Shown one piece after another: positions 9,437-43,988 of a stretch of 57,025 bases of DNA (position 1 is the stretch's first letter; every line of letters begins with the position of its first letter). The position numbers and the translations under genes are program-made. The stretch lies in assembly GCA_003225295.1 (NCBI GenBank), contig QHYZ01000088.1:1-57025 (forward strand). Reading direction: 5' to 3'. Under the pieces are notes generated by a model, which searched no databases, had not been told where the DNA came from, and was given only the letters and a program-made list of their open reading frames with translations. The DNA comes from Acidobacteriota bacterium (lineage in GTDB: Bacteria; Acidobacteriota; Terriglobia; Acidiferrales; UBA7541).

Positions 9437-9850
9437 CTATAGCGGCGTGGCCTGCTGTTCAATGTAGCGCTTGATGAGGTGGAGTGGTGCGCCACCACAG
9501 GATGCGGCGAAATAAGAAGGCGACCACAAAACATTCTTCCAGTAGCATTTGGCGATGCGCGGTAACCGGCGTCGTAGAACATAGCTGGATACCCCTTTTA
9601 AGGAGTTCACCAGCGATGAGACGGACACTTTCGGCGGGTAATTCACCAGCAAATGTACGTGGTCGCGCTGGCCGTCCAGCTCTACCAGCTGGGCCTGGAA
9701 GTCGGTGCAGACCTTGGAGAAGATAGGTCGGAGTGCTTCGATAGCATGGCCATCAAAGATGCAGTGGCGGCGTTTGGTGACAAAGACCAGATGAACGTGC
9801 ATTGCAGAAGCGCAATGCCTGCCGTGTCTAAGGTCCTTGATTTTGTCCAT
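9437..9850 (-). CDS. tnpA: IS200/IS605 transposase TnpA (Y1 HUH single-strand transposase)
   Basis: 137 residues, the usual length for IS200/IS605 TnpA. The HUH metal-binding motif is His64-Val-His66 (RDHVHLLV), and the nucleophilic tyrosine is Tyr129 within the Y-x3-Q helix (KRYIEQQ). The N-terminal strand MHVHLVFVTKRR is also typical. Start placed at ATG 9850; the longer frame upstream runs through the tnpB start region and has no similarity. The enzyme cuts and joins single-stranded DNA at the hairpin ends during replication, without target duplication. It is transcribed away from tnpB, with 21 nt between the two starts. All catalytic residues are present. Confidence 0.93.
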   Translation of the reverse strand: MDKIKDLRHGRHCASAMHVHLVFVTKRRHCIFDGHAIEALRPIFSKVCTDFQAQLVELDGQRDHVHLLVNYPPKVSVSSLVNSLKGVSSYVLRRRLPRIAKCYWKNVLWSPSYFAASCGGAPLHLIKRYIEQQATPL

Positions 9851-9871
9851 GGACCAGATAATAATGAAAAC

Positions 9872-11071
9872 ATGGAACGTAGGCAAGCCTTCCGGTTCCA
9901 GTTGATGCCCAACGGCGAACAGCAACGGCAGATGCGGTGTTTCGCTGGCTGTGCTCGCTATGTCTACAACAAAGCACTGGCGCTCAAGAAAGAACGGTAC
10001 GAGAAGAAAGAACAGCTCACTCGTTTCCAACTGGACAAACTGCTGGTGCAGTGGAAGCAGGAAACACCGTGGCTTAGAGAAGCCCCGGCTCACGCACTAC
10101 AGCAAGCGATTCTCGACCTCGATAGGGCCTACACGAATTTCTTCGAGAGGCGCGCCAAGTTCCCGAAGTTCCACAAGAAAGGAGTGCGAGATTCGTTTCG
10201 AGAATCGGACCAAAAGTGCATCAAGTTGGAGCAAGGGAACAACCGCATCCAATTGCCAAAGATTGGTTGGGTACGCTACCGCAACAGCCGTGAAGTTCTT
10301 GGCGAGATACGCAGCGTCACCGTCAGCCAGTCGGCTGGCCAGTGGTACGTCAGCGTCAACACGTTCGAGCAAGTAGAGCCACCACGACACGCCTCCACGG
10401 CAGTGGTGGGGATCGACTGGGGGGTAGCCCAGTTCATCACGCCGTCGGAAGGCCAACCTGTAGACCGGTTGTCCCCACTCAAGAATTTCTTGCCCAAGCT
10501 CAAGACGTTGCAGCGGCGGTTGGCACGCAAGCAAAAGTTTTCGAATAACTGGAAGAAAGCGAAAGCGAAAGTCACCCAGCTGTACCAACGCATCGCCAAC
10601 ACCAGAAAGCATTTCCTACATAAGGTCTCGTCGGACATCAGCAAAAACCACGCCGTTGTCATTGTCGAAGACCTGCAAGTAAAGAATATGTCGGCATCGG
10701 CCGCAGGCACCAGGGAGCAGCCGGGAAGGAACGTCAAGGCCAAGTCGGGCCTTAACCGCTCCATTCTGGATGCCAGCCCGTTCGAGCTACGTCGCCAGTT
10801 GGAATATAAGACCAGGTGGCGGGGCGGCATGCTCGTGGCGGTGCCGCCGCACAACACCAGCCGCCAGTGCCCCGGGTGCGGGCACACTTCGGGAGACAAC
10901 CGCAAGAGGCAAGCACAGTTCACCTGCCTCGAGTGCGGTTTCTCCGCCAACGCCGATTGGGTTGCCGCCATGAACATCAAAGAGGCAGGGCTTGCCTTGT
11001 TAGCTTGTGGAGATACTTCGCCTGAAGTAAGGGCGTCGGCCCAAGAACCCACCGAAGGCCTTCATGCTTAG
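9872..11071 (+). CDS. tnpB: TnpB, RNA-guided RuvC nuclease of IS605-type element
   Basis: 399 residues, normal for TnpB. The three RuvC carboxylates are intact: Asp182 (GIDWG), Glu266 (VEDLQ) and Asp362 (NADWVAAMN). The zinc finger has Cys333, Cys336, Cys352 and Cys355. The conserved KSGLNRSIL segment lies at 291-299. Start at ATG 9872, since sequence upstream of it belongs to the tnpA start region. TnpB uses an omega-RNA copied from the 3' end of its own gene and the right end to cut DNA next to a short target motif, helping the element persist. By analogy the omega-RNA would cover about 10950-11120 and the guide would begin at 11121. Nuclease family is certain; activity is not shown. Confidence 0.95.
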   Translation: MERRQAFRFQLMPNGEQQRQMRCFAGCARYVYNKALALKKERYEKKEQLTRFQLDKLLVQWKQETPWLREAPAHALQQAILDLDRAYTNFFERRAKFPKFHKKGVRDSFRESDQKCIKLEQGNNRIQLPKIGWVRYRNSREVLGEIRSVTVSQSAGQWYVSVNTFEQVEPPRHASTAVVGIDWGVAQFITPSEGQPVDRLSPLKNFLPKLKTLQRRLARKQKFSNNWKKAKAKVTQLYQRIANTRKHFLHKVSSDISKNHAVVIVEDLQVKNMSASAAGTREQPGRNVKAKSGLNRSILDASPFELRRQLEYKTRWRGGMLVAVPPHNTSRQCPGCGHTSGDNRKRQAQFTCLECGFSANADWVAAMNIKEAGLALLACGDTSPEVRASAQEPTEGLHA

Positions 11072-11090
11072 GCATGGAGCCAGTAGGAGT

Positions 11091-11110
11091 CCCCTTCCTT
11101 CAGGAAGGGG
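11091..11110 (+). repeat. Right-end hairpin of IS605-type element
   Basis: Perfect 8-bp stem with a TTCA loop (CCCCTTCC-TTCA-GGAAGGGG), 19 nt after the tnpB stop and 10 nt before the proposed TCAA cut site. In this family such a hairpin is the TnpA recognition structure and also forms the 3' scaffold of the TnpB guide RNA. Confidence 0.75.
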
Positions 11111-11222
11111 AGGAGGTCAAGGCATGGTAAAGATTCTTTGTCTCCCTGTCGAGGGGCTTCCCTGGCAGCATTTGGTCGAATGCGCTGAACAAGGCGTTTG
11201 CGAATTGCAAAAGGAGATGTAA

Positions 11223-11666
11223 ATGTCCATCACGCGACGTGACCTATGCCTCTCGCTTCGGGCAGCTCTCCTCCCCGCCGTTCTGCGGCCCGAGGGCGTG
11301 GCCGCACAAGAGGAATCTATGCCATCGGCAATGTATCCGTTCGAAGCGCTGCCCATTCGAACGCCGAACAACGCGGAGATCCGCGACGTTCTGAAGGGCA
11401 AGCTGGCCACCGGCGAGTCCTTGGAGGTGCATGAAACGACGCTGCCTCCGGGCGGGGCGCCCCACGCGGCACACCACCATGTGCACTCCGAAATGTGGCT
11501 GATTCGAGAAGGAACGGTCGAGCTAACCGTCAACGGCACGAGCTACCGTCTCGGGGCCGGCTCAGTCGGATTCGTACGTTCCAATGACCAGCATGGGATC
11601 AAGAATGTGGGCACCGCGCCGGCGACATACTTTGTGGTGGCGGTCGGCCCCGGCGCCGGTTCTTGA
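11223..11666 (+). CDS. Exported small cupin-domain protein
   Basis: 147 residues with a signal-like N-terminus (MSITRRDLC, possibly a Tat-type twin arginine, then a hydrophobic stretch to about residue 28). The rest is a single cupin barrel. Motif 1 is visible as HHHVHSE...EG and motif 2 as the H-x3-N of QHGIKN, so the metal-binding His/Glu set is complete. Such cupins in acidobacteria are often secreted and unassigned; they may be sugar-binding or isomerase/dioxygenase-like. A perfect AAGGAG lies 5 nt before the ATG. A 32-codon frame (11124-11222) ends directly against the start and begins 3 bp beyond the IS right end, so the IS may have cut an upstream gene. Function is unknown. Confidence 0.8.
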   Translation: MSITRRDLCLSLRAALLPAVLRPEGVAAQEESMPSAMYPFEALPIRTPNNAEIRDVLKGKLATGESLEVHETTLPPGGAPHAAHHHVHSEMWLIREGTVELTVNGTSYRLGAGSVGFVRSNDQHGIKNVGTAPATYFVVAVGPGAGS

Positions 11667-11882
11667 AGGACCGAGAAACACGGTGCAGTCTCGTGGGGGG
11701 GCGCGAAACGGCCTAAGCTACGCTGCCGTGTGGTTTGCGGTGGTCCCCGAGAAGCTGCGCCGGTCGCTGACGGGAATTGAAGTTGTTTGAATACATAGAG
11801 AGTAAAATTGCAGAAAAAGAAGCACTTGACTCGAAGGAGCCTGTTGTACCATTGCTCCGCGAACGATTTCCCATAGAGTAGT

Positions 11883-11907
11883 GAGATGAGAAATACAGCT
11901 TCATCTC
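11883..11907. promoter_or_regulatory. Inverted repeat upstream of the LacI-type regulator
   Basis: Seven-base arms GAGATGA and TCATCTC separated by 11 nt, centred about 60 nt upstream of the regulator start. It differs from the CGTAAGCGCTTACG sites elsewhere, so it could serve autoregulation by another protein or be an RNA hairpin in the leader. The evidence is only the repeat itself. Confidence 0.3.
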
Positions 11908-11953
11908 TTCCGACTTTGCGCCGCCAGACGGACCTTAGGGACAAGCCTCGAGT

Positions 11954-12958
11954 ATGAGTGGCGTTGGAATAAAAGACGTCGCCAAGTTGTCGGGCGTGTC
12001 CACCGCTACCGTCTCGCATGTCATCAATAAGACGCGCTACGTCAGCGATGAAACGAAACGAAGGGTTCTGGGCGCGATTGAAAATGTAGGCTACACGCCA
12101 AACATACACGCGCGCAATCTGGCCTCCGGCCGGAGCCGGACTCTCGGCCTGATCATCTCGGACATCACCAACCCATTCTTCCCGGACCTGGTTAAGTCCA
12201 TTCAGGAAAGAGCGCTCGAACTGGGCTATGACGTCATTGTGCTGAATACCAATTACGAGCCTGCGCGCGACGCCCGATACGTGCAGCGTTTGTTGGAATT
12301 GAGGGTTCGGGGTGTCATGATTCTAACGACGGAGATGGATCTTTCCGTGATCGAGCGCCTGTCATCGCGCGAAATTGCGGTAGTTTTTCTCGATATCGGA
12401 AAAGTAGGCCCGCATACTAGCAATATCCGAGTAAATTATGAAAAAGGTGTTCATGAAGCGGTTGAACATCTCCTTGAGCTTGGCCACCGGCAGATCGCTT
12501 TCATAAGTGGCCCGGTGCGCTTCAAATCGGCACAATTCAGGCGGCAGGCTTTCCTCGAAACGATGACGAGTCATCGAGCGTCACTGCACACAGAACCGTT
12601 GATTCTGGAAGGCAATTTCAAACTGGAGAGTGGAGAGCAGGTCGTACGAGAAATGTTGAGGTTGAAGAGCAGACCAACAGCGGTCCTCGCCGCCAATGAT
12701 TTAATGGCTGTGGGAGCCTTGCGTGAGCTGAGACGGGCAGGTCTGCAAGTTCCGAAAGATGTTTCCGTGGTGGGCTGCGACGATATTTCCCTTGCCGAGC
12801 TGACCGATCCCCGGCTCACTACTATCATGATCCCGCGAACCGAAATCGGCACTGCCGCCGTCGAGGCTGTGTTACGAACGAATTCCGCTGAGGGCCGCGA
12901 AATCAGAATCTCCACTCAACTACTGGTTCGGCAGTCCACGGACGCAGCCCGTTATTGA
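11954..12958 (+). CDS. LacI/GalR-family transcriptional regulator
   Basis: 334 residues, standard LacI length. The helix-turn-helix and hinge occupy residues 1-60 (IKDVAKLSGVSTATVSHVIN, then YTPN), followed by the periplasmic-binding-protein-like effector domain with the usual SDITNPFF and VVGCDDI segments. LacI proteins bind palindromes with a central CG as dimers and release them on binding a sugar. Its probable targets are seen in this window: a 16-bp palindrome at 13382-13397 ahead of Oar-like receptor 1, next downstream, and the same core at 23211-23224 ahead of the GH27 alpha-galactosidase. The hinge helix is intact, so DNA binding is expected. An alpha-galactoside or derivative as effector is inferred from the targets. 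Confidence 0.92.
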   Translation: MSGVGIKDVAKLSGVSTATVSHVINKTRYVSDETKRRVLGAIENVGYTPNIHARNLASGRSRTLGLIISDITNPFFPDLVKSIQERALELGYDVIVLNTNYEPARDARYVQRLLELRVRGVMILTTEMDLSVIERLSSREIAVVFLDIGKVGPHTSNIRVNYEKGVHEAVEHLLELGHRQIAFISGPVRFKSAQFRRQAFLETMTSHRASLHTEPLILEGNFKLESGEQVVREMLRLKSRPTAVLAANDLMAVGALRELRRAGLQVPKDVSVVGCDDISLAELTDPRLTTIMIPRTEIGTAAVEAVLRTNSAEGREIRISTQLLVRQSTDAARY

Positions 12959-13337: not shown

Positions 13338-13366
13338 TTGACAGGGGAAACGGTGGCGCGAATAAT
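13338..13366 (+). promoter_or_regulatory. Sigma-70 promoter of Oar-like receptor 1
   Basis: A perfect -35 box TTGACA (13338-13343), a 17-nt spacer and a -10 box AATAAT (13361-13366, five of six consensus bases). Transcription would start near 13373, leaving a leader of about 110 nt before the receptor gene. The LacI-type palindrome begins about 9 nt after the predicted start. The rest of the 518-nt gap between the regulator and the receptor (12959-13476) shows no convincing gene. Confidence 0.75.
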
Positions 13367-13381
13367 CCAAAACCATTAGGG

Positions 13382-13397
13382 ACGTAAGCGCTTACGT
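13382..13397. promoter_or_regulatory. LacI-type operator, 16-bp perfect palindrome
   Basis: ACGTAAGCGCTTACGT is perfectly self-complementary and has the central CG and AAGCGCTT core typical of LacI/GalR/CcpA operators. It sits just downstream of the predicted transcription start of Oar-like receptor 1, where a bound repressor would block polymerase. Sixteen consecutive bases starting one base earlier recur at 23209-23224. Confidence 0.8.
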
Positions 13398-13485
13398 TCG
13401 GGCCTTTGCGTTCCGGGAGTGGGGCCTTCCTTAGAATTCAGCTCTTGGGGACCTTGCGACGGAGTCTAACTGCGAGGTGATGACT

Positions 13486-16400
13486 ATGTTCCACAAACTT
13501 TCTAGTTCGGCGATCTTTCGTTTTGGCTTCTTAGTCGCATTCTTTCTGGGGTCGTTTGCACTGGTCCTTTCCGCACGCGCACAAATTGGAAACGCGACCT
13601 TGGGCGGTACTGTGATGGACCCTTCTGGCGCCGCCGTGGCCGACGCGGAACTGACACTGGTCAGTCAAGCGACCAGCTTCGAGGCAAAAGCCACTTCCAA
13701 TGAGCGGGGCGAATATACCTTTCGCAATGTGACTCCCGGAACTTATGACCTGAAAGTCGTCAAAGCCGGGTTCCAAAACTACGTTCAGAAGGGCATTGTC
13801 CTGACAATTAATCAGTCGGGTCGTGCGGATGCGACATTAAAGGTAGGGACCACGTCCGAGACCGTCACGGTAGAGGGCGAGAATACCCTCATCAACTACG
13901 ACAACGGAACGGTTCAGGGAGGCATTGATCCTGAAACCGTCAAGGACCTGCCGTTGATCGTGTCGGGCAAGCCCCGCTCGTCGGCCAGCTTCGCCGTTCT
14001 TCTCCCCGGCGTGTCCACTGGCAGCAGCAATGAGGCTTTCAATGCCCGCATCAACGGCGGTTTACAGTCCGGCGACGAAGCCCTTCTCGATGGTGCCACC
14101 ATGCAGGAAGGCTTCATGAGCCAGAGCGGCATGGTCTCCATCCAGGGCGATTTCCAGATGTCGCCCGACATGGTGCAGGAGGTAAAGGTTCTCACGTCGG
14201 CCTACGCTCCCGAGTATGGGTCATCTTCTTCGGGGCAGATCACCATGGTCAGCAAGTCTGGCGGGAACCAATATCATGGGGCAGCATTTGAGTATGCCCG
14301 GAACAAGGTATTCAATGCGGCACCCTGGAATTCAAGCTGCAGCGGTACGGGTTGCGACCGCCGCCCGTCCGACAACGAGCATGACTTTGGCGCTAACTTC
14401 GGCGGCCCGATCAAGATACCGTTCCTTTACCACGGGACCTCCAAGCATCATTCGTTCTTCTATTTTGACTGGGAAGCATTTCACCAGGCCGGCGGCTCGA
14501 ATGTCCCCACTCTCTCGATTCCTTCCGTCCTGGAGCGAGGCGGGAACTTCACGGACTGGAAGAACAGCAGCGGCAACCTCATCCCTATTTACATGCCGGG
14601 CAATGCCAGTGCTACTTGTCAAACCGCTGCCGGGGTAGGACCAGGGCAGCAATTTCCCGGGAATATTATCCCTTCGGGTTGCTACAGCCCAATCGCCCAG
14701 GCTTACCTTGCCGTAATGCCGCAGCCTACGAATACTCAGCCGTTCAACAATTACACGCTGGCCAAGCCCGTACCCGATTCGCTAGTCTCGAACAGCAACG
14801 TTTTCATGACGCGTATTGACCACAACTACGGAGACAAGGATCACTTCTATTTCTTCTGGTGGCGCCAGTTTACGGGCTACAACACGGCGACCGCACTTCC
14901 CGCGATCATTTCCACCGAGTCCCCGACGCGGCCCCAGAATTCGCCGATCGCGCGGTTTAACTGGGAGCACACTTTTTCGACAACCATGACCAACCACATG
15001 ACCCTTGGATATCTGAACCGCAATGAGGGTTATGGTTCCGAGCCAGAGGTCCTGGCTGCCGCTAAGGCCGGAACTTTACCGGCCGTGACGGGAGCAGTGA
15101 GCAACAACTCACTGCCCCAATTCACGTTTACCACCTTCAACCAGATTTCGAATAGCACCGGCCCGCCAAACGGGAACGTCACCACCCGCCCGACCTGGGA
15201 CCTGAACGACACCGCGAACAAAATCATCGGACACCATACGATCACGTTTGGCTTTGATTGGAGAAATATCCAGGGCAATATTCACCAGCACACGAATGAG
15301 GCAGGAAGCTATCGCTTCACCGGTTCAGCCACGGCAATACCGGGCCTTAATAGCGGAGCTCCGATTGCGGATTTTCTGCTGGGGGCCGTGACGGGCGATT
15401 CGGTTGACCGTCGAACGGTCAGCGCCTGGTTCCCGCGCCAGAAATCCTGGGCGCTGCACGTAAATGACTCGTGGAAGGTGACTACAAAATTCACCGCGAA
15501 CTTTGGCGTGCGGTGGGATTACTTTTCGCCATCGCGAGAGAAGTACAACCACCTTTCGTTCTTCGACCCCACAGGGATGAATCCGGACGGAATACCGGGC
15601 CGGTTGGCCTTCGCGGGAAGTGGCTCATCTTGCCAGCCTGCTTGTTATGGCTCAGAGTACCCAGAGAAGCCGTGGCGCAAGGGTTTTGCGCCGAGGTTGA
15701 GCGTGGCCTACTCCTACGATCAGAAGACGGTAGTTCGAGCAGGTTACGGCGTATTCTTCACACAAGCGTTCTATCCGGGTTGGGGTGGAGGAATATCACT
15801 GGATGGGTACAACCTAAATCAATCCTTCGGCACGCTGAAGGATCCCACCACCAACCAGGCCGACCCATCCTTTTATCTGGACAATGGCGTTCCGGCACCC
15901 GCGCAGGCCCCGCCTTTTATCTCGGGGTCCTTCAACAACGGTCACGGTATCCTATACCGTCCGTTGGACGCCAACCGGCGGTCGTACTCTCAGCAATGGA
16001 ACCTGACAATCGAACGGCAACTGCCGCAAAGTGTTTTCCTGAGTGTGGCTTATGTGGCAAACAAGGGCTCGCGGCTGCCTTCGAGCTTGAATCCGGTCAA
16101 CGTTCTGAATCCGTTTGATCCGAAGATTCAGGCTCTCGAAGCGAATACAACCGCCATTGATCCGTCCTGCGCCTCTGGCAATCCGGCTCCGGGAGTGAAT
16201 TGCGGTTACGTACCTGAACTGGACGTTCCATTCACATCAAACAACCAGACACTTTTCGGAATTACTCCACCATATCCTGGCTGGATCGCAGAACTCAACG
16301 CCGCCGGCAATTGTTCTCCGACCGTCGGTCAGGCGCTACTTCCTTTCCCGCAGTTCTGCGATAAGCTCCAAGGGCTTAATGAAAACCACGGCAGCTCCAT

Positions 16401-17226
16401 CTATCATTCGTTCCAGTTGAAGTTCGAGAAGCGTTACAGCAAGGGCCTTTACATGCTGGTTGCCTACACGAACTCGAAACTCATCACTGATGCTGCCGAC
16501 AATACCCAGCGTGACGCCTCCACATGGAACGCCTCGCAAGGGGTGATCTCGCCGTTTGAGGAGAAGCGCAATCGCTCTTTGGCGCCCGACGACGTTCCGC
16601 AGACGCTCTCGGCAGCTTTCGTGTACGAGCTGCCGTTGGGCAAGGGCAAATCCTATCTGAATAACAACAGCGGCCTGGATCGCTTGGTTGGTGGCTGGCA
16701 AATCAGCCCGATCATTCGCTACTCGAAGGGTACTCCTCTGTGGGTCCGTTCGGGGCAGTGCCTTACCACTTACACCGGACAAGGGTGCTTGCCTGGGCTC
16801 GTTTCGGGAGTGCATCCCTTCTTGCAAGATCCCAATAATTTCGATCCTGGCAAGGGGGCGCTTCTCAACATAGCCGCATTTGAGCCTCTGACGGATTTCG
16901 AACCGGCAGGAGGGTGCCCTGGCTGCACCGGAGTGTACGGCTACACGGGCAAAGGGCCGCGCATTTTTGGGTTTCGGGGACCGAACTACAAAAACGTGGA
17001 CTTTGCGCTGACCAAGAATACAAAGGTCAATGAGCGACTCAACCTCGTCTTCCGCGCAGAGTTTTACAACGCCTTCAACCTACATATCTTCGTCAACGAT
17101 GGCAATTTCACCATTTCTGGAGGCAATGCATTCGACACAGATATAAGTTCAACGAGCTTCGGCCAGTGGACAGGCAACGTCAGCGCGCCGCGAAGAATTC
17201 AGTTCGGCGCAAGAATTGAATTCTGA
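13486..17226 (+). CDS. Oar-like TonB-dependent outer-membrane receptor 1
   Basis: 1246 residues: signal peptide to about residue 33 (cleavage near ARA-QIG), a carboxypeptidase-regulatory-like beta-sandwich (about 40-120; GTVMDPSGAAV...GTYDLKV), a plug domain (about 130-260, with QVKVLTSAYAPEYGSSSSGQ-like region) and a long beta-barrel ending in Phe (ARIEF), the usual outer-membrane targeting signal. Such Oar-like proteins are abundant in Acidobacteriota and are thought to import oligosaccharides or peptides. Start chosen at ATG 13486 because AGGTGA lies 5 nt upstream; earlier GTG 13477 and ATG 13480 overlap this site. Promoter, operator and a strong downstream terminator are all visible, so it is probably a single-gene unit under LacI control. 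The ligand is inferred to be an alpha-galactoside. Confidence 0.93.
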   Translation: MFHKLSSSAIFRFGFLVAFFLGSFALVLSARAQIGNATLGGTVMDPSGAAVADAELTLVSQATSFEAKATSNERGEYTFRNVTPGTYDLKVVKAGFQNYVQKGIVLTINQSGRADATLKVGTTSETVTVEGENTLINYDNGTVQGGIDPETVKDLPLIVSGKPRSSASFAVLLPGVSTGSSNEAFNARINGGLQSGDEALLDGATMQEGFMSQSGMVSIQGDFQMSPDMVQEVKVLTSAYAPEYGSSSSGQITMVSKSGGNQYHGAAFEYARNKVFNAAPWNSSCSGTGCDRRPSDNEHDFGANFGGPIKIPFLYHGTSKHHSFFYFDWEAFHQAGGSNVPTLSIPSVLERGGNFTDWKNSSGNLIPIYMPGNASATCQTAAGVGPGQQFPGNIIPSGCYSPIAQAYLAVMPQPTNTQPFNNYTLAKPVPDSLVSNSNVFMTRIDHNYGDKDHFYFFWWRQFTGYNTATALPAIISTESPTRPQNSPIARFNWEHTFSTTMTNHMTLGYLNRNEGYGSEPEVLAAAKAGTLPAVTGAVSNNSLPQFTFTTFNQISNSTGPPNGNVTTRPTWDLNDTANKIIGHHTITFGFDWRNIQGNIHQHTNEAGSYRFTGSATAIPGLNSGAPIADFLLGAVTGDSVDRRTVSAWFPRQKSWALHVNDSWKVTTKFTANFGVRWDYFSPSREKYNHLSFFDPTGMNPDGIPGRLAFAGSGSSCQPACYGSEYPEKPWRKGFAPRLSVAYSYDQKTVVRAGYGVFFTQAFYPGWGGGISLDGYNLNQSFGTLKDPTTNQADPSFYLDNGVPAPAQAPPFISGSFNNGHGILYRPLDANRRSYSQQWNLTIERQLPQSVFLSVAYVANKGSRLPSSLNPVNVLNPFDPKIQALEANTTAIDPSCASGNPAPGVNCGYVPELDVPFTSNNQTLFGITPPYPGWIAELNAAGNCSPTVGQALLPFPQFCDKLQGLNENHGSSIYHSFQLKFEKRYSKGLYMLVAYTNSKLITDAADNTQRDASTWNASQGVISPFEEKRNRSLAPDDVPQTLSAAFVYELPLGKGKSYLNNNSGLDRLVGGWQISPIIRYSKGTPLWVRSGQCLTTYTGQGCLPGLVSGVHPFLQDPNNFDPGKGALLNIAAFEPLTDFEPAGGCPGCTGVYGYTGKGPRIFGFRGPNYKNVDFALTKNTKVNERLNLVFRAEFYNAFNLHIFVNDGNFTISGGNAFDTDISSTSFGQWTGNVSAPRRIQFGARIEF

Positions 17227-17260
17227 CAAGCGCACACGCTAATACACCCCAAAACGAGCG

Positions 17261-17297
17261 GCGCCCCGATGAAGAGTCGGGGCGCTGTCTTTTTCTT
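17261..17297 (+). terminator. Rho-independent terminator after Oar-like receptor 1
   Basis: Nine-bp GC-rich stem GCGCCCCGA (17261-17269) and TCGGGGCGC (17277-17285) with a 7-nt loop, followed by a T-rich tail (TGTCTTTTTCTT). It lies 35 nt after the stop codon of the receptor gene. Confidence 0.9.
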
Positions 17298-17353
17298 GAC
17301 CAAAAAAGTCTTAGAGCATGGTTCATGGTAACGATCAGAGGTAAAGCACTCCG

Positions 17354-18373
17354 CTACATTGGAGGCTGCGGGGACCCACTCGCAGGTTGCGCTTCACTGG
17401 CTATCCTTAGCTCCTGAAAGCGGCCAATTTCCACTTTCGAAAGCGGTTCGTTTCCCACCCGATGATAGATTTTGCCCAGCAGATAATGCGGTTCCGGATA
17501 CTCTGGAGCCAAGGCGACGGCCAGCTTGAGCGATTCAACGGCAGCCTGGTATCCGCCTTGCATCTCAAGAACGCGGCCGAGTTGATAGTGCGCCTGTGGA
17601 AGCTGCGGATCGTAGCCGACGGCTTCCCTAAGATTCTTTTCCGCTTCGGGCAGTCGATTTAGAGCAATGAGCGAAATAGCTAAATCCACGTGCGGCCAAG
17701 CAGAAGGCTTCGATTGCAGCCGGTTCAGCTCGATGGCGCGATTGTAGTTCTTTACCGCTTCGTCGAACTTGCCGAGGTAGTCGAAGCAAAGCCCCAAAGT
17801 GTCATAAGCGCGCGCCATTTTCGGATCCAGTTCAATAACTTTTTGCAGCCGAGTGATGGCAGAAGTGTAGTTCCGTTCGTCGTAATCCAAGCGCCCTAGC
17901 CAGTACAAAAAGAGGGGATTTTGCCCCTGCGTTGCTGCAAGCTTCTCCAATTCCGGGCGCGCCAAGTCGCGCCGGTTGAGTTTGACGTAGGCCATTGCCA
18001 GTGTGAACCGGTTCCGGTCATCGAGAGGAGCAATGGCTTCGGCCTTTTTCCAGGCGATGGCAGCCTGCAGGTATTGGCCGTCGAGGAAGAAGATTCCACC
18101 GGCCATCGCCAGTAACTTTGCCGAACGGGACGATTTCAGATCGTGCTCCGCTTCTTCAACGAGGATCTTTTCAGCAGGCTTATAGTCGCGCGTGTTAATG
18201 GCTTTTTCAAGCTCCGCGAGACGTGACGGGGCCAACTGCAGATCCGAAAGCTGGTGAGACAAACTTGATGTGGAGGGATCGTCCTGCTGCAACACCGGGA
18301 TTTGAGCACGAGCGGGCACCACTCGGCACAAGACTAGTGCGACCAGGACGATGATCAACTCTTTTCTCGTCAC
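17354..18373 (-). CDS. Secreted TPR-repeat protein A2
   Basis: 339 residues from a GTG at 18373. This start gives a clean signal peptide (TRKEL, hydrophobic run, VPARA-QIP) and lies 13 nt after the stop of the upstream TPR gene; an in-frame TTG at 18418 would overlap that gene and add a less typical N-terminus. The mature part is built of about seven tetratricopeptide repeats (for example LFLYWLGRLDYDERNYTSA and the ...A..LG.....DEAV..Y..AIEL pattern), ending in a Pro/Ser-rich tail. TPR proteins are scaffolds; in the periplasm or on the outer membrane this one may hold a complex. No enzymatic domain is seen. It forms a two-gene minus-strand operon with the next upstream TPR gene. Confidence 0.85.
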   Translation of the reverse strand: MTRKELIIVLVALVLCRVVPARAQIPVLQQDDPSTSSLSHQLSDLQLAPSRLAELEKAINTRDYKPAEKILVEEAEHDLKSSRSAKLLAMAGGIFFLDGQYLQAAIAWKKAEAIAPLDDRNRFTLAMAYVKLNRRDLARPELEKLAATQGQNPLFLYWLGRLDYDERNYTSAITRLQKVIELDPKMARAYDTLGLCFDYLGKFDEAVKNYNRAIELNRLQSKPSAWPHVDLAISLIALNRLPEAEKNLREAVGYDPQLPQAHYQLGRVLEMQGGYQAAVESLKLAVALAPEYPEPHYLLGKIYHRVGNEPLSKVEIGRFQELRIASEAQPASGSPQPPM

Positions 18374-18386
18374 GACAGTGGGCCAA

Positions 18387-19253
18387 TTAAGGCAACGAAT
18401 GGGCTTTGGCCTCCTCAATCTTTGCCTTTAGTTCTGCGGCGCCCTTGCTCTCAGGCACGAGCTTCAGCTCCAGTGCAATTTCCGCTAGTGCCTGTTCGTA
18501 TTTCTTCTGTTCCAACAGGATCGAGCCAATTGCCAAATGAACCTCGGGTAATTTGGGATCCGCATCCGCGGCGCGCTGGAAGGCCTCAAGCGCCAGATCG
18601 TATTTTTCCTGAACCGCATACTCCTGTCCGAGACCTTGTTGCAAGCGCGCGGAATGCGGGTTGATTCGTGCCATCCGCTGATACGACCAGCCGGAAAGCC
18701 TCATCCAGGCTTTGCCCAATTGATAAGCATATTCCGGTTCCTGCGGAGCCAGCTTGACGAGCTTCTGAAGTTGCTGAGCGGCGGCGATCCAGTTTTCCGA
18801 AGCCTCATACGCATTCGCCAGCTGGAGGTGGGCCTGCGGCTGCTGCGGCATCAATCTGACGGCGCGCTGGAGCTCGCGCACGGCCTCCGCTTTTCTTCCG
18901 AGTACCAGCAGACTGGATCCAAGCAGCAACCGTGAAGGACCATAAGCGGGCTGAAGGGCCAGCGCTTCGCGAAACTTCTGAACAGCTTCCAAATGCCGGC
19001 CACGCATCTGGGCGATGACACCGAGGTTGTGATAGACAAGTGGATGTTTGACCCCCTGGCGGAGGGCACTCGAGAAAACTTTTTCTGCCGTGTCGAGATC
19101 GCCGGACTTCAACGCCTCGATGCCAGGCGCCACCTGGATTTCAAGTGAGGGCGGCGGAATTTCCTGCGCAGAACACTGAGTTGCAACAGCAACAAACAGC
19201 AGCAAAAAGAGCTTGCCGCGCAAGCATCTCAGAAAAGGATTTGCAGAAGGCAT
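18387..19253 (-). CDS. Secreted TPR-repeat protein A1
   Basis: 288 residues from ATG 19253, which gives a good signal peptide (positively charged start, LFLLLFVAVAT, cleavage near CSA-QEI). The mature part consists of about six TPRs with the classical W/L-G-Y-A-F-P spacing (YHNLGVIAQMRGRHLEAVQKF and similar). It precedes TPR protein A2 by 13 nt and is divergent to TPR protein B1 across a gap of about 125 nt, which must hold both promoters. Start choice rests on the signal peptide, not on a clear ribosome site. Likely periplasmic scaffold; partner unknown, though genome context points to the nearby receptor and CRTAC1-type protein. Confidence 0.85.
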   Translation of the reverse strand: MPSANPFLRCLRGKLFLLLFVAVATQCSAQEIPPPSLEIQVAPGIEALKSGDLDTAEKVFSSALRQGVKHPLVYHNLGVIAQMRGRHLEAVQKFREALALQPAYGPSRLLLGSSLLVLGRKAEAVRELQRAVRLMPQQPQAHLQLANAYEASENWIAAAQQLQKLVKLAPQEPEYAYQLGKAWMRLSGWSYQRMARINPHSARLQQGLGQEYAVQEKYDLALEAFQRAADADPKLPEVHLAIGSILLEQKKYEQALAEIALELKLVPESKGAAELKAKIEEAKAHSLP

Positions 19254-19379
19254 CGATGCGACCGCACAGGCAGCAGAGCAGCACAAATCGTAGGTAGTAT
19301 AAACCAGCGCCGGAGCCCGCTCCTATGGAAACAATCAGACCTCTTACATATAATTGTCTCGCTAAAGCTTAAAATCCCC

Positions 19380-21005
19380 GTGAGAAAAAAACCCGGACGG
19401 TGGCTTGCAATGCGGCGTTGGCGGATTTCCGTGATAGCTCTGGCGGTGTTGTTCTGTTTTTCGAGTTTTGTCCCTGCTCATCCCAGGCAGAACCGCGCTA
19501 GCGGGAGAGAGCAAGAAATTCTGCGAATCCAACAACTGATCCAGGAGCACGATCTCGACAACGCGCACCTCGCACTCGCAGCGGCTGCCAAGCAGTATCC
19601 GACGGATGAGGGATTCGACAACTTGCTTGGCATCGTCGAGGCACAGCAGGGTAATCACCTCGCAGCGGAAAAGAGCTTTCGCCGGGCGATTGCCAGGGCG
19701 CCGAAATTCACCGGAGCTTACCTGAATTTAGGACGGCTGTATCAAGAGAACACCGCGGCCGATCCGCAGGCGCGTCGCAAGGCACTCGACGTTTATGGGC
19801 GAGTGCTCGAATATGAAGCAGCAAACGCTGAAGCGAATTACCAGAGTGCAGCGCTTTTCTTGCAACTGGGTCAATACGAGAAATCACTCGCTCACATTTC
19901 ACGTCTCCTTGGCGAACAACGGAAGAGTGCACAAACAATCTCCATCCAGTGCGCCGATTACGCTGGATTGGGAAACCACCAGGCTACCGACGATGCGGCC
20001 GCGCGGCTCATGGCTGCCCCGGATATTTCTGAGCCGGATGCCCAGCAAGCGTTGTTGGGGCTGCTTCCAGGCAAGCGCGACGACCTAATTGTGTCTCTGC
20101 TCGAAAGCCTGCAAAGCCGCCAGCAATTGACTCCCGGCCTGTTCGAAGCACTGGGCTTGACCTATGAACGTATGGACCGGCTGCCAGAAGCACGGGCCAC
20201 GCTGGAGAAGTCTTTTGTTGACGGAAAGTCTTCTTCCGCCCTGCTCATGGAGTTGGCGCGCATTGCCCACTTGCAAAAAGACTACCAGGGGGCCCTGGGC
20301 TACCTGGCGCATGCGAGAGACCTGGAGCCCCGCAAGGCTAGCCTGCATTATTACTTTGGCGTTGTGTGTGTGGACCTAAGCCTTATCGCCGAGGCGCGAA
20401 ATTCGTTTGAAAAGGCCGTGCAGCTCGAACCACAAAACCCAGATTACAACTATGCTATGGGTGCCGCCTCTGCCTTCCGGCACGACCCGGCGGAAGCAGT
20501 TCCGTACTTCGAGAAGTATCTTAAACTGAAGCCCCAGGATCCACGCGGCAAGCTGGCCATGGGCGCGGCTCTTTTTCGGGCCAAAGATTACCAGCATGCC
20601 CTTCCTTGGCTCAAGCAATCTGCTGGCATCCCGGCAATCGCCGCGAGAGCTCATTATTACTTGGGGGCGATTGCGCTGGAGCAAGGACAGCTCGAGGAGG
20701 CTTTCGTCGAACTACAGGAAGCGCTAAAAGCCAAACCGGATTTCACGGATGCTCTGGCCGAACTGGGCCAGTACTATCTGAAGCGTAGAAACTACCAGCA
20801 AGCGGAGAAGCAGATTCAGCTCGCATTGCAGATTGAACCTGACCATTACGCCGCGAACTTCTATCTGTTGATGCTCTACACGCGCACCAAAGATGCGCGC
20901 GAAAGAGCGCAGGCCAAGCGTTTCGATGAGTTGAAAGAACTGATGGCAGAAAAGACCCAGGAGTTCCTGCGCATCGTGGAAGTGCGGCCCTTTGAATCAC
21001 CATGA
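19380..21005 (+). CDS. Secreted TPR-repeat protein B1
   Basis: 541 residues. After a charged start and one hydrophobic segment (about 15-35; VIALAVLFCF), nearly the whole protein is TPR: about a dozen repeats, clearest at 290-520. GTG 19380 is the longest start; ATG 19410 is also possible and would give a tighter signal peptide. It is translationally coupled to the next gene, the stop and start overlapping as ATGA. An exported scaffold role is inferred from architecture and signal only. Confidence 0.85.
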   Translation: MRKKPGRWLAMRRWRISVIALAVLFCFSSFVPAHPRQNRASGREQEILRIQQLIQEHDLDNAHLALAAAAKQYPTDEGFDNLLGIVEAQQGNHLAAEKSFRRAIARAPKFTGAYLNLGRLYQENTAADPQARRKALDVYGRVLEYEAANAEANYQSAALFLQLGQYEKSLAHISRLLGEQRKSAQTISIQCADYAGLGNHQATDDAAARLMAAPDISEPDAQQALLGLLPGKRDDLIVSLLESLQSRQQLTPGLFEALGLTYERMDRLPEARATLEKSFVDGKSSSALLMELARIAHLQKDYQGALGYLAHARDLEPRKASLHYYFGVVCVDLSLIAEARNSFEKAVQLEPQNPDYNYAMGAASAFRHDPAEAVPYFEKYLKLKPQDPRGKLAMGAALFRAKDYQHALPWLKQSAGIPAIAARAHYYLGAIALEQGQLEEAFVELQEALKAKPDFTDALAELGQYYLKRRNYQQAEKQIQLALQIEPDHYAANFYLLMLYTRTKDARERAQAKRFDELKELMAEKTQEFLRIVEVRPFESP

Positions 21006-21970
21006 AGATGCCAAGCAGCAAATCACAACTTCTTGCTTTGTCGTCCGGACTGCGCAGTCTTTGGTTGGTAGCCTTCATGATTGCCATCTCGGGAGGGACT
21101 TATGGACAGTCTTCAGCGCTGACGGAATGCACGCGAGCGTTTTATAGCCAGGACTACGCTCAAGCCGCTCAATTGGCGGAAAAGCATCTGAGCAAGTATC
21201 CGAAAGATGTAGCTCTCCGGGTGGTTCTCGCTCGTGCTGAACTTGCCCAAGGCAGGGCTCTGCAAGCTTTCGAGGAACTCCGAAGAGCACTGGAGTCCGA
21301 CCCGAGAAGCATTGATGCCCTCTATTATTTGTCAATTGTCTCCAGAGAGCTTTCCCAAAGTGCATATCAGCGGCTATTCTCGGCGGCTCCTGACTCTTTC
21401 CGCGTGCACCAGCTTCTTGCAGAAGCCGCCCTGAGCGCCAACAACCCAACGGAAGCGGAGAAGGAATTCAAGAAAGCCTTGGAAGTAAATCCTCAATCCG
21501 TGGAAGTTTCCACGGAACTGGCAGAGCTGAAGCGTTCCCAGTCAAAATTTGATGAAGCCATCGCTTATTACTTTCAGGCGGAGAGGAATGCACCGTTGAG
21601 TTATGACGTCGCCTATGGTCTGGGTGCTTGCTACACATACAAACAAGAATATCCTCAAGCGGTCCAGTGGCTGCGGAAGGCTGCGGCTTTGGCCCCAGAT
21701 TCCGCGGCGGGTCGGTTCGCCCTCGGCAACGCATTGTTTCAAGATGGACAATTCGAGGAGGCCATTCCGGAATTGAACGAAGCCTTACGTCTCGAGCCGC
21801 GGATGAAACAGGCGTATTTCCTTCTCGGCCGCGCTTTTTCAAAACTAGGCCGCTCGGAAGAGGCTAAAGCAGCAATCAAAAAGCTGGACGAACTCAACCG
21901 CTCTGAGGTCCCGGGACAAGCAAATGGGCCGGCCGGGGAGGCTCGTCCAAGACCCGAGTCGCAAAGATAG
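21002..21970 (+). CDS. Secreted TPR-repeat protein B2
   Basis: 322 residues, ATG overlapping the stop of B1 (ATGA). A hydrophobic N-terminal segment (about residues 17-35, ending in GGTYGQSSA) looks like a signal peptide. At least six TPRs follow, e.g. DVAYGLGACYTYKQEYPQA, then a short Pro/Arg-rich tail. The gene converges with the GH27 gene, 44 nt away. Its tight coupling with B1 suggests the two products work as a pair in equal amounts; no other domain is seen. Confidence 0.85.
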   Translation: MKMPSSKSQLLALSSGLRSLWLVAFMIAISGGTYGQSSALTECTRAFYSQDYAQAAQLAEKHLSKYPKDVALRVVLARAELAQGRALQAFEELRRALESDPRSIDALYYLSIVSRELSQSAYQRLFSAAPDSFRVHQLLAEAALSANNPTEAEKEFKKALEVNPQSVEVSTELAELKRSQSKFDEAIAYYFQAERNAPLSYDVAYGLGACYTYKQEYPQAVQWLRKAAALAPDSAAGRFALGNALFQDGQFEEAIPELNEALRLEPRMKQAYFLLGRAFSKLGRSEEAKAAIKKLDELNRSEVPGQANGPAGEARPRPESQR

Positions 21971-22014
21971 GGCTCGCTCTAGCAGATTTAGGGATGGCAT
22001 TGTCTCTGACGAAG

Positions 22015-23187
22015 TTATTTGGAAACTTTGAGCAGCACTACACCGTGCTTCGGAACTTTCGTTGTATAGGAACCCTGCGCCGTGCCTAGATCCTTGTGAT
22101 CCAGGAGGTCGCGGAGTTTCGCCGCTTCTGGAGCGCCAATCACTTTGAATTCGAGCGTCATTTGGATGGCGGACTCGCTGCGGTTGAAGAGTCCTACGGC
22201 TTTGCTGCCGTCGGCGAGCGGTCTCGCCCAGATTTCAAGCGGGCCTTCTTGCCAAAACCGGTGTCCTTGAATCCCCTTGCTGTCCTGATCCACGGCGATG
22301 ACTTCGGAGTTCGTTAGCAATTCCTTCGTTTCGGCGGGCATATTTCGCAGGTCATTCCCCGCCAAAAGGGGAGCTGCAAGCAAGGCCCAAAGCGCCATGT
22401 GCGTCCGATATTCCTCGCGGTTCATGTGGCCGTTGCCCACTTCCAGCATGTCCGGATCGTTCCAGTGTCCCGGACCGGCGAATTTTTCCAGGCCGTTCTG
22501 CCCAAACCCAATTAAAGACATGCTGTCGTAACTGTCGCTGATGTCTCCTGTTGTCCGCCACAAATTGCCGGTTTTGGGTCCCCAACGCCACGGCGCCTTC
22601 ACGCCCCAGTTGCAAATGCTGAACACCATGGGACGTCCGGATTCGGCAAGCGCATCGCGAAATTTTGCATATTGCACCTCCGGATCGAGACCCTCCGAGT
22701 TGCACCAGTCGATCTTCACGTAGTCGATTCCCCAAGAGGCGTACGTCTTGGCGTCCTGGACTTCATAATTCAGGCTGCCCGGCCGCTTTTCGCAGGTGCC
22801 CGTGCCTGCGTCCGTGTAAAGGCCCAGCTTCAAACCTTTACTGTGGACGTAGTCCGCGAGGACTTTCATTCCGGAGGGGAATCTTTGAGGATCCGCAACG
22901 ATAGCCCCCTGCGGATCGCGACTCACCTGCCAGCAGTCGTCGATGTTCACATACTGATAGCCCGCCGCCTGCATCCCGCTGCTGACCATGGCGTCGGCCA
23001 TCTCGCGAATGAGTTTGTCGCTGACGTTGCATGCAAACTTGTTCCAACTGTTCCAGCCCATCGGCGGAGTCTGTGCCACCGAACTGGAGGCTTGCGAAAG
23101 AGAGGACGGCGCGAATAAAGCTCCAGCATTTAACAGAACTAATGCCGCCGGAAGAACTCGAAGGGAAAGGCACGGTGAAGAAGTCAT
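22015..23187 (-). CDS. Secreted GH27 alpha-galactosidase
   Basis: About 390 residues from ATG 23187, preceded by GAGGTG; an ATG at 23199 would add four residues. A signal peptide (hydrophobic to about residue 32) is followed at once by TPPMGWNSWN, the N-terminal GH27 hallmark. Counting from 23199, the nucleophile is Asp164 (VKIDWC) and the acid/base Asp219 (RTTGDI); the GHWNDPDMLEVGN block is complete. GH27 enzymes hydrolyse terminal alpha-galactose with retention. A short C-terminal beta domain completes the normal size. The LacI-type palindrome lies at 23211-23224, overlapping the likely transcription start, with a weak extended -10 (TAGGCT, complement of 23228-23233). This links the enzyme to the LacI regulator and Oar-like receptor 1. 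Confidence 0.93.
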   Translation of the reverse strand: MTSSPCLSLRVLPAALVLLNAGALFAPSSLSQASSSVAQTPPMGWNSWNKFACNVSDKLIREMADAMVSSGMQAAGYQYVNIDDCWQVSRDPQGAIVADPQRFPSGMKVLADYVHSKGLKLGLYTDAGTGTCEKRPGSLNYEVQDAKTYASWGIDYVKIDWCNSEGLDPEVQYAKFRDALAESGRPMVFSICNWGVKAPWRWGPKTGNLWRTTGDISDSYDSMSLIGFGQNGLEKFAGPGHWNDPDMLEVGNGHMNREEYRTHMALWALLAAPLLAGNDLRNMPAETKELLTNSEVIAVDQDSKGIQGHRFWQEGPLEIWARPLADGSKAVGLFNRSESAIQMTLEFKVIGAPEAAKLRDLLDHKDLGTAQGSYTTKVPKHGVVLLKVSK

Positions 23188-23208
23188 TGCACCTCGCATT
23201 ATTTGCCA

Positions 23209-23224
23209 GACGTAAGCGCTTACG
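23209..23224. promoter_or_regulatory. LacI-type operator ahead of the GH27 gene
   Basis: GACGTAAGCGCTTACG, identical over 16 bases to the site at 13381-13396; the inner 14 bases (23211-23224) are a perfect palindrome. It lies between the GH27 gene and the divergent CRTAC1-type gene and could control one or both. Confidence 0.8.
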
Positions 23225-23376
23225 CAGAGCCTAGCACGCCTTCCCGAAAAGTGCGATGCTATTCGCCGGCTTTATCCTCAGATGACGAGCCCTTCATGGA
23301 TGGGATGGTGCAAAGAAGTCGCCACGCGCGGATGAAACAATTGCGAATTCCGCAGTCTCCTAGGAAACGACTGGAG

Positions 23377-42428: not shown

Positions 42429-43988
42429 ATGAAACCTCTTGGTACTGTATTGCTCCTGCTCCTGGCGGTTCCGTGTTTTGCCGCGGACTTGACCGGAAAC
42501 TGGGTGGTCCGCGATCCCCTGCCGGACGGCACTTTCCGGACTACGTATCTAGATCTTCACCAGGAAGGCTCTCGCATCACCGGCTCCATCCGGGTCACTC
42601 AGTTTTATTTCAAGATTATCGAGAGCACGGACGGGCCTGATGGCTTCACGCTCACCGCCAGCATGACGGACGGAACCAATGAGCGCCGCGTGAAATACGA
42701 AGGCCAGCTGATGGATGACGAGCTGCACCTGGCGACGCGGCGCCGCCCCGACGCCGAGCTCATCCACATGGTCGCTCACCGCGCGCCGCTCGGCGAAGGC
42801 GCGTATCCCGCCCGCCTCCCCCTGCCGGCGATTCATAAGGTGGCCGACAACGGCCTTGCCAAAACGCCTCCGATGGGGTGGAACAGTTGGAACAAGTTTG
42901 CAGGGCGCGTGGATGACGCCGCGGTCCGCGGAATGGCCGATGCCATGGCCAGTAATGGGATGAAAGAGGCCGGCTATCAATACATCAATATTGACGACAC
43001 CTGGGAAGCAGGTCGCGACGCACAAGGGCATATCACGACCAATAAGAAGTTTCCAGACATGAAAGCGCTCGCCGATTATGTGCATGGCAAAGGCCTCAAG
43101 ATCGGTATCTACTCTTCACCAGGTCCCAACACCTGTGCGGGATACGAAGGTAGTTACGGGCACGAGGAGCAGGATGCCGAAACGTATGCCGCGTGGGGCA
43201 TTGACTATCTTAAGTACGACTGGTGTGGTGCGCGCAACCTGTACACCGACCAAGAGATGCGCGCGCTATATCAAATCATGGGCGATGCGCTTGTGAAAGC
43301 GGGGCGTCCCATCCTGTACAGCCTCTGCCAGTATGGTCGCGCCGAGGTGTGGAAATGGGGCGCCGAGGTAGGTGGCAATGCCTGGCGCACAACCGGAGAC
43401 ATCCGCGACACTTGGGACTCCATGACCAATATTGGTTTCTCGCAAGACCAGCTGGCTCCGTGGGCGGCGCCCGGTCACTGGAACGATCCGGACATGCTCG
43501 AAGTCGGCAACGGGGGTATGAACGACGACGAATATAGAACGCATATGAGCTTGTGGTCGATTCTTGCCGCACCGCTGCTCGCTGGAAACGATTTGCGCAA
43601 CATGACCCCCGCCATCTTGGAGATTCTCACCAATCGCGAAGTCATCGCCGTCAATCAAGACAAGGCTGGCAAACAGGGCCGGCGCATCGCGAAATCGGGC
43701 GACCAGGAAGTATGGGCTAAGGCGCTTTTCGATGGCGGGCAGGCCATCGGATTATTTAACCGCGGCGGCGCGCCCGCAAAGATCACCGTCAAATGGACGG
43801 ACCTAGGGATGAAAACTGCACCCGCCAGTGCACGAGATCTCTGGGCCCACGGCGACCTCAAGCTGGACGGGGCGGAATACTCCGTAACGGTGCCGGCCCA
43901 CGGCGTGGTGATGCTCAAGATAGCTGCGTCATCAGGAATTGCGGCCACCGGCATCCGCGGGCCTACTCTGCGCGCAGCGTTCAACTAG
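42429..43988 (+). CDS. Secreted GH27 alpha-galactosidase with extra N-terminal beta domain
   Basis: 519 residues, longer than the 390 of the other GH27 gene in this window. Signal peptide (cleavage near CFA-ADL), then about 120 residues of a beta-rich domain (LTGNWVVRDPLPDGTF...; a lipocalin-like or Big-type fold seen ahead of GH27 in acidobacteria), then the catalytic domain from KTPPMGWNSWN (146). Nucleophile Asp264 (LKYDWC) and acid/base Asp324 (RTTGDI) are intact, as is the GHWNDPDMLEVGN block. Expected periplasmic alpha-galactoside hydrolysis. Not preceded by the LacI-type operator. The function of the N-terminal domain is unknown; binding of substrate is a guess. Confidence 0.93.
   Translation: MKPLGTVLLLLLAVPCFAADLTGNWVVRDPLPDGTFRTTYLDLHQEGSRITGSIRVTQFYFKIIESTDGPDGFTLTASMTDGTNERRVKYEGQLMDDELHLATRRRPDAELIHMVAHRAPLGEGAYPARLPLPAIHKVADNGLAKTPPMGWNSWNKFAGRVDDAAVRGMADAMASNGMKEAGYQYINIDDTWEAGRDAQGHITTNKKFPDMKALADYVHGKGLKIGIYSSPGPNTCAGYEGSYGHEEQDAETYAAWGIDYLKYDWCGARNLYTDQEMRALYQIMGDALVKAGRPILYSLCQYGRAEVWKWGAEVGGNAWRTTGDIRDTWDSMTNIGFSQDQLAPWAAPGHWNDPDMLEVGNGGMNDDEYRTHMSLWSILAAPLLAGNDLRNMTPAILEILTNREVIAVNQDKAGKQGRRIAKSGDQEVWAKALFDGGQAIGLFNRGGAPAKITVKWTDLGMKTAPASARDLWAHGDLKLDGAEYSVTVPAHGVVMLKIAASSGIAATGIRGPTLRAAFN

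Follow-up and report, generated by a model that had tools for sequence, protein, structure and literature searches.

The locus described here raises the question of whether a single local repressor governs both an outer-membrane receptor and a glycosidase encoded on the opposite strand. It lies on contig QHYZ01000088.1 of an Acidobacteriota genome (assembly GCA_003225295.1; 8,134,361 bases in 385 contigs, 96% complete), and the whole stretch of 57,025 nucleotides that was analysed is called the window below. A preliminary description had proposed that a sequence shared by the upstream regions of an Oar-like receptor gene and a GH27 glycosidase gene is the operator of a nearby LacI-type regulator, and that the two genes form an alpha-galactoside regulon. 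We consider it very probable that the locus is a local two-site regulon, in which one LacI protein would act at the receptor and GH27 promoters and be released by a sugar. The two sites are a unique, conserved and correctly placed LacI-type pair, and synteny supports the regulon.

Two rare palindromic sites at one locus

The elements on which the argument turns are the following.

13338-13366, plus strand: receptor promoter, TTGACA-17-AATAAT, 11/12 consensus matches, conserved in orthologues
13382-13397, no strand: putative operator 1, ACGTAAGCGCTTACGT, a perfect 16-bp palindrome, from exact-copy scans and footprinting in relatives
23211-23224, no strand: putative operator 2, CGTAAGCGCTTACG, 23 nt upstream of the start codon of GH27, from footprinting in relatives

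The 16-mer GACGTAAGCGCTTACG occurs at 13381-13396 and again at 23209-23224 of the window, exactly as first reported. The first copy had been placed within a perfect 16-bp palindrome, and the palindrome is there, but its frame is offset by one base from the repeated 16-mer; at the second site the palindrome spans 14 bp. The promoter before operator 1, described earlier as near-consensus for sigma-70, has its -35 box at 13338-13343 and its -10 box at 13361-13366 with 17-nt spacing, and the distance from the TTGACA box to the operator is 45 nt. If transcription starts 7 nt past the -10 box, operator 1 would cover approximately +9 to +24.

When the window was scanned with up to three mismatches allowed, only the two places were found, each on both strands, giving four matches, as against a mean of 0.29 and a maximum of 3 in 100 shuffled windows, none of which reached four. 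Across the 8.13-Mb genome, CGTAAGCGCTTACG has two exact copies per strand, one upstream of the Oar-like receptor and the other upstream of the GH27 gene; both are intergenic, both are in the window, and 0.035 copies are expected from base composition. The preliminary description had named many random genomic copies as an outcome that would speak against it, and two exact copies genome-wide is the opposite result, which also rules out a global regulon for the exact motif. Among 89 genomes of the family, seven exact copies were found in five genomes, all seven at the lacI-receptor-GH27 locus, compared with two copies of a reversed-pattern control. Looser copies are not in excess, since with up to two mismatches the source genome holds 33 (2 exact and 31 inexact) versus 94 for the control, and the 13 of 31 inexact copies that were examined (L003-L015) all lie inside mechanically called open reading frames of at least 90 codons. 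This absence of excess speaks for a chance palindrome repeat without a regulatory role, an explanation that is nonetheless already refuted by conservation: two exact copies fall in one pair of intergenic stretches within 10 kb, and both are kept in relatives while their flanks drift.

Conservation of the sites in relatives

Close lacI orthologues (82-100% identity) are present in genomes G006, G009, G010, G011, G012, G013, G002 and G003, the last two of which were excluded from the receptor-side count, their contigs ending short of the site. Every receptor-side copy adjoining lacI is within one mismatch (8/8, with the window and the two G006 copies included, one with a broken lacI), with the qualification that the copy on contig G006:C32 is near-identical to the window and so not independent. 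The GH27-side site is likewise kept in 8/8 (window, G006, G007, G009, G010, G011, G013 and G018), with one mismatch in each genome outside the window; G035, in which the region upstream of GH27 is cut off, was left out of this count. A second outcome named beforehand as refuting, no conservation near orthologues, thus did not occur. On the receptor side, 13/14 columns of the site are invariant in seven genomes compared with 77/266 in the surroundings when G007 is dropped (p = 2e-6), and 11/14 compared with 67/266 when it is kept. For the GH27 side, the corresponding values in eight genomes are 12/14 and 36/220 (p = 1e-7). Conservation on the receptor side extends to the mRNA leader, a CCATTAG block and both promoter boxes (-35 and -10).

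The genes run lacI, receptor, four TPR genes, GH27, FG-GAP in G010, G011 and G006:C147 (where lacI is broken); in G009 and G013 this order is spread over two contigs per genome. A motif scan of 14 genomes returned 22 sites versus 10 for the control, with 16 of the 22 at the lacI-receptor-GH27 locus, three before orthologues of a second Oar-like receptor, P0004, and one each in G008, G018 and G035. No relative was found among viral contigs.

The LacI-type regulator

The candidate regulator is encoded next to the receptor.

11954-12958, plus strand: lacI-type regulator gene, 334 amino acids, recognition helix STATVSHVINKTR, with PF00356, PF13377 and PF00532 above cut-off

Its end lies 422 nt upstream of position 13381, in line with the 0.4 kb given earlier. 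The protein belongs to the LacI family, with a helix-turn-helix (HTH) match to PF00356 of 68.8 bits (cut-off 27) and a match to PF13377 of 132.4 bits (cut-off 26.5). Its HTH is close to RbsR and PurR structures, and its hinge, HARNLAS, can be aligned to ARSLA in the hinge of PurR and contains Ala-51 and Leu-54, residues that go with a central CG in the operator according to PMC2978694. The same paper gives a recognition code in which helix residues 15 and 16 are linked to bases 5 and 4, and residue 20 to base 6. T15-A16 is paired with TA at bases 5/4 both here and in a paralogous module described below, and the code is consistent with both. Among the LacI genes of the genus that were read (43 rows, covering all 13 of the source genome and the best of most others, plus eight more from G007 and G018), the helix STATVSH is found in orthologues only. 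Taken together, this LacI is supported as the best candidate regulator of both sites. Its named relatives come from metagenome-assembled Acidobacteria gp2 (AA93, AA90, AA89) of soil-depth samples.

In the mechanism that we propose, LacI would bind operator 1 directly past the receptor promoter and operator 2 at the GH27 promoter, and would block transcription at both when its inducer is absent. The repressor would be released by a sugar, most probably one that contains galactose or a product of its breakdown, and release would turn on the outer-membrane receptor, the presumed importer, together with the exported glycosidase from separate transcripts.

The receptor and GH27 genes

Further features of the two target genes are these, with N-termini judged by eye wherever export is stated, here and for all other proteins.

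13447-13484, plus strand: conserved receptor mRNA leader ending in GCGAGGTGA, the ribosome-binding region, from orthologue alignment
13477-17226, plus strand: open reading frame of the Oar-like outer-membrane receptor, CarboxypepD_reg and OMP_b-brl_4, start probably ATG 13486
17258-17288, plus strand: terminator-like hairpin past the receptor, 13 pairs followed by CTTTTTCTTG
22015-23187, minus strand: GH27 gene, 390 amino acids from the second ATG, PF16499 and PF17801, signal-peptide-like N-terminus
23228-23256, minus strand: block upstream of operator 2 that is conserved in eight sequences, GCATCGCACTTTT ... GTGCTAGGCT, possibly an extended -10 promoter though not consensus-like

The receptor matches PF13620 (66.8 bits) and PF25183 (587.3 bits), which identifies it as an Oar-like TonB-dependent receptor; the Pfam scan listed no Plug family for it at 0.001. 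The source genome holds 68 Oar-like match rows. Because a terminator-like hairpin follows the gene, the receptor probably forms a single-gene transcript, although hairpins of this class show no excess (4 found, 5.2 in shuffles). The hairpin and its T run, together with the opposite orientation of the next genes, indicate that receptor and GH27 gene are transcribed separately. The leader is strongly conserved, with relatives reading GGGGACCTTGCGAGGGAGTCCAACTGCGAGGTGA, and its sequence GGGGACCTTGCGAGGGAGTCCAA is found in a single place genome-wide at up to three mismatches. A riboswitch or other known RNA in the leader was considered and rejected, there being no Rfam family at E<=1 and no repetition of the leader in the genome.

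The glycosidase matches PF16499 (Melibiase_2) with 272.4 bits and PF17801 (C-terminal beta-sandwich) with 70.4 bits, and its closest PDB matches, 6f4c and 1uas, are both alpha-galactosidases. The motifs IDDCW, KIDWCN and TTGDISD align with those of alpha-galactosidases, while SLCEWG reads SICNWG here. The altered stretch, CEWG to CNWG, is part of a substrate-pocket motif, and because of this change the identity of the sugar is uncertain; the GH27 family also includes alpha-N-acetylgalactosaminidases and beta-L-arabinopyranosidases. The predicted start of the gene is the second ATG at 23187 instead of 23199, as in the orthologues, where a conserved TGCGAGG stands before the second ATG, and this leaves 23 nt between the end of operator 2 and the start codon. 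A second GH27 gene at 42429-43988 on the plus strand, 55% identical to the first, is without this operator.

Since operator 2 lies between two divergent genes, it might also, or instead, serve the FG-GAP/ASPIC gene on its other side (first in-frame ATG at 23377), and that gene does stay beside GH27 in G006, G007, G009, G010, G011 and G013. Nevertheless, the conserved block, which ends in GTGCTAGRCT right before the operator, extends on the GH27 side only, and G018 keeps the site though its FG-GAP orthologue is not beside GH27. We therefore regard service to the FG-GAP gene as unlikely and retain GH27 as the target of operator 2.

Loci without the regulator and the case for another LacI

The G007 locus offers a natural test. 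No lacI was detected there (no tblastn match at 1e-8 in 11.5 kb; best match in the genome, 43%), and the receptor site reads CGTAAACGCTTACC, having lost its symmetry, while the promoter is retained. Decay of the receptor site in this way fits relaxed constraint once the regulator had gone.

Several observations weigh against control of both genes by one LacI in the form proposed. G007 and G018 retain the GH27 site, and no STATVSH LacI was seen in 3/3 and 7/8 of their helices, respectively (matches at E<=1e-40), the eighth G018 match having no aligned HTH. On G006:C147 lacI carries a frameshift and a stop while both sites are intact, and no GH27 orthologue of at least 76% identity was found in the lacI-bearing assemblies G002, G003 and G012. 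The link between helix and site is also non-exclusive, since the Arg-20 relatives L174 and L181 carry CGTAAnCG sites, and these two show that a simple rule by which His-20 reads CG and Arg-20 reads TG is not clean. Before lacI itself, no autoregulatory site was found at up to four mismatches in 11601-11960. At GH27, an upstream scan found no consensus promoter; the earlier claim that operator 2 overlaps the start of the GH27 transcript loses that support, and is plausible from the conserved TGCTAGRCT box just upstream. Finally, the alpha-galactoside part of the original proposal is a reasonable guess drawn from the GH27 gene alone, whereas its pairing of receptor and hydrolase in one regulon is well supported by the paired sites, their conservation and synteny. 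In G018, CGTAAGCGATTACG stands between galT and a gene for a class II aldolase, a link to galactose that is suggestive only, with the control pattern also giving one match in that genome.

Because G007, G018 and G006:C147 keep sites without the intact regulator, the GH27 site may be served by a different LacI in some species; alternatively, the losses may be recent. The wider possibility is that a LacI paralogue uses these operators as well, or is their main user; there are candidates in the 12 LacI HTH matches above cut-off in the source genome, and the CGTAAnCG sites of Arg-20 relatives also point this way. None of the source genome's other LacI genes has the STATVSH helix, however, both sites are confined to a single locus, lacI adjoins the receptor in every lacI-bearing relative with an available flank, and it is where lacI is gone that the receptor site has decayed. 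Use by a paralogue, whether shared or principal, consequently appears improbable to us, and the adjacent LacI remains the preferred regulator. The intact lacI copy of the G006 bin is on the 4.5-kb contig C32 (L021), 99.8-100% identical to the window; the bin is otherwise ~87% identical at the locus, and this contig is perhaps misbinned or foreign.

Paralogous LacI-Oar modules

In the source genome, four of the 12 above-cut-off LacI genes adjoin an Oar-like gene (C132, C224, C259 and C299); on the assumption of 65 receptors and a density of one gene per kb, the binomial probability is roughly 3e-5. A fifth (C31) adjoins a receptor with a Plug domain. The C299 paralogue (G000:C299:67500-78500, L108; L224-L237) has the helix STATVSN, faces an Oar-like gene and has its own putative operator, GTTAAGCGNTTAAG, so that the window locus is one of several LacI-Oar modules; the layout is the same in both, with a different half-site. 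Twelve STATVSN-LacI/Oar loci of the genus include nine with exact GTTAAGCGNTTAAG, one with a single change, one without and one cut off. Exact copies number 14 in 13 of 36 genomes of the genus (reversed-pattern control: 4 forward, 5 reverse), and 13 of them stand 34-42 nt past a TTGAC box beside an Oar-like gene, 12 with a LacI gene in view. The exception, G030:C5:33938, has neither this placement nor a LacI gene.

Downstream of the receptor there is a TPR protein in the C299 and C224 modules, and a GH3 gene beside the C259 module. It is quite possible, though somewhat less likely than not, that the genus carries SusD-free modules resembling polysaccharide utilization loci (PULs), which would combine a dedicated LacI repressor and an Oar-like receptor with an operator directly past a TTGACA promoter and be insulated by helix position 20, where His would read CGTAAGCG and Asn GTTAAGCG; the exported TPR protein in two further modules could be a SusD-like partner. 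Such a set of insulated modules would be of more interest than a single regulon, and the paralogous module offers a route to sorting other Oar-like receptors by regulator. The exported TPR proteins directly past LacI-linked Oar-like receptors, possible SusD-like partners, are at L108:8879-10300 (plus strand) and L106:1499-2722 (minus strand), and one has a lipobox-like LAAC.

Comparison with known systems

The kind of switch proposed is well known, and a local LacI regulon with an Oar-like receptor would be a new example of it. Local LacI sugar regulons, as surveyed in PMC4052901, share with this locus the neighbouring LacI gene, the palindromic operator centred on CG, and the transport and hydrolase targets; the target here is an Oar-like receptor, and the main text of that survey mentions neither "Acidobacteria" nor "TonB". 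No report of LacI operators of Oar-like receptors in Acidobacteria was found in the open-access literature, with subscription papers mostly outside the search. These soil bacteria carry Oar-like receptors in very large numbers, most of them without a known substrate, and a dedicated repressor that ties one of them to a glycosidase would give it a testable substrate.

Compared with PurR and RbsR, the HTH of the window LacI is nearly identical, but the protein falls below every NCBIfam equivalog cut-off (PurR, 242.5 of 501 bits; RbsR, 239.5 of 382; CcpA, 198.2 of 442.35). Its inner half-site, TAAGCG, is like that of CcpA sites, while the outer bases are CG here and TG in PurR, RbsR and CcpA operators. 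In Proteobacteria, sugar loci built around TonB-dependent receptors, such as the CUT loci of Xanthomonas, combine a LacI-type regulator, an outer-membrane receptor and a glycosidase without SusD; the present locus differs in its Oar-like receptor and in having no inner-membrane sugar porter between the operators. In SusC/SusD PULs, too, a receptor is regulated together with an exported glycosidase. Here, in agreement with the lack of a SusD signature noted earlier, no SusD family was matched in the 19 window open reading frames scanned with Pfam, and four exported TPR proteins, none with this operator, lie between the two genes.

Other candidate sites and minor observations

The second Oar-like receptor, P0004, was considered as a further target and rejected, the site drifting among relatives and probably belonging to another regulator. 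It reads CGTAAACGATTACG past a TTGACA box in G006:C115 (L211), G012:C87 (L207) and G013:C634 (L215), begins CGTGAACG in G009, G001 and G003, and is poorer in G007; the source genome gave no P0004 match at 1e-120 among the 45 scored of 133 candidates. Six genomes searched for P0003 at E<=1e-250 yielded no match, an uninformative result, since this threshold also misses the cut-off G012 copy.

In seven genomes (G015:C9, G007:C27, G013:C619, G006:C106, G009:C19, G012:C83 and G008:C15), a different LacI (43-44% identity) lies next to a different GH27 (57-59%) in convergent orientation. Within the window, positions 11054-11136 of the plus strand give a weak Rfam match to HgcC (RF00062; E 0.001; 30.1 bits with a gathering threshold of 50). 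This is the 3' end of an IS605-type TnpB gene (9653-11071), and the match is possibly the guide RNA of this TnpB.

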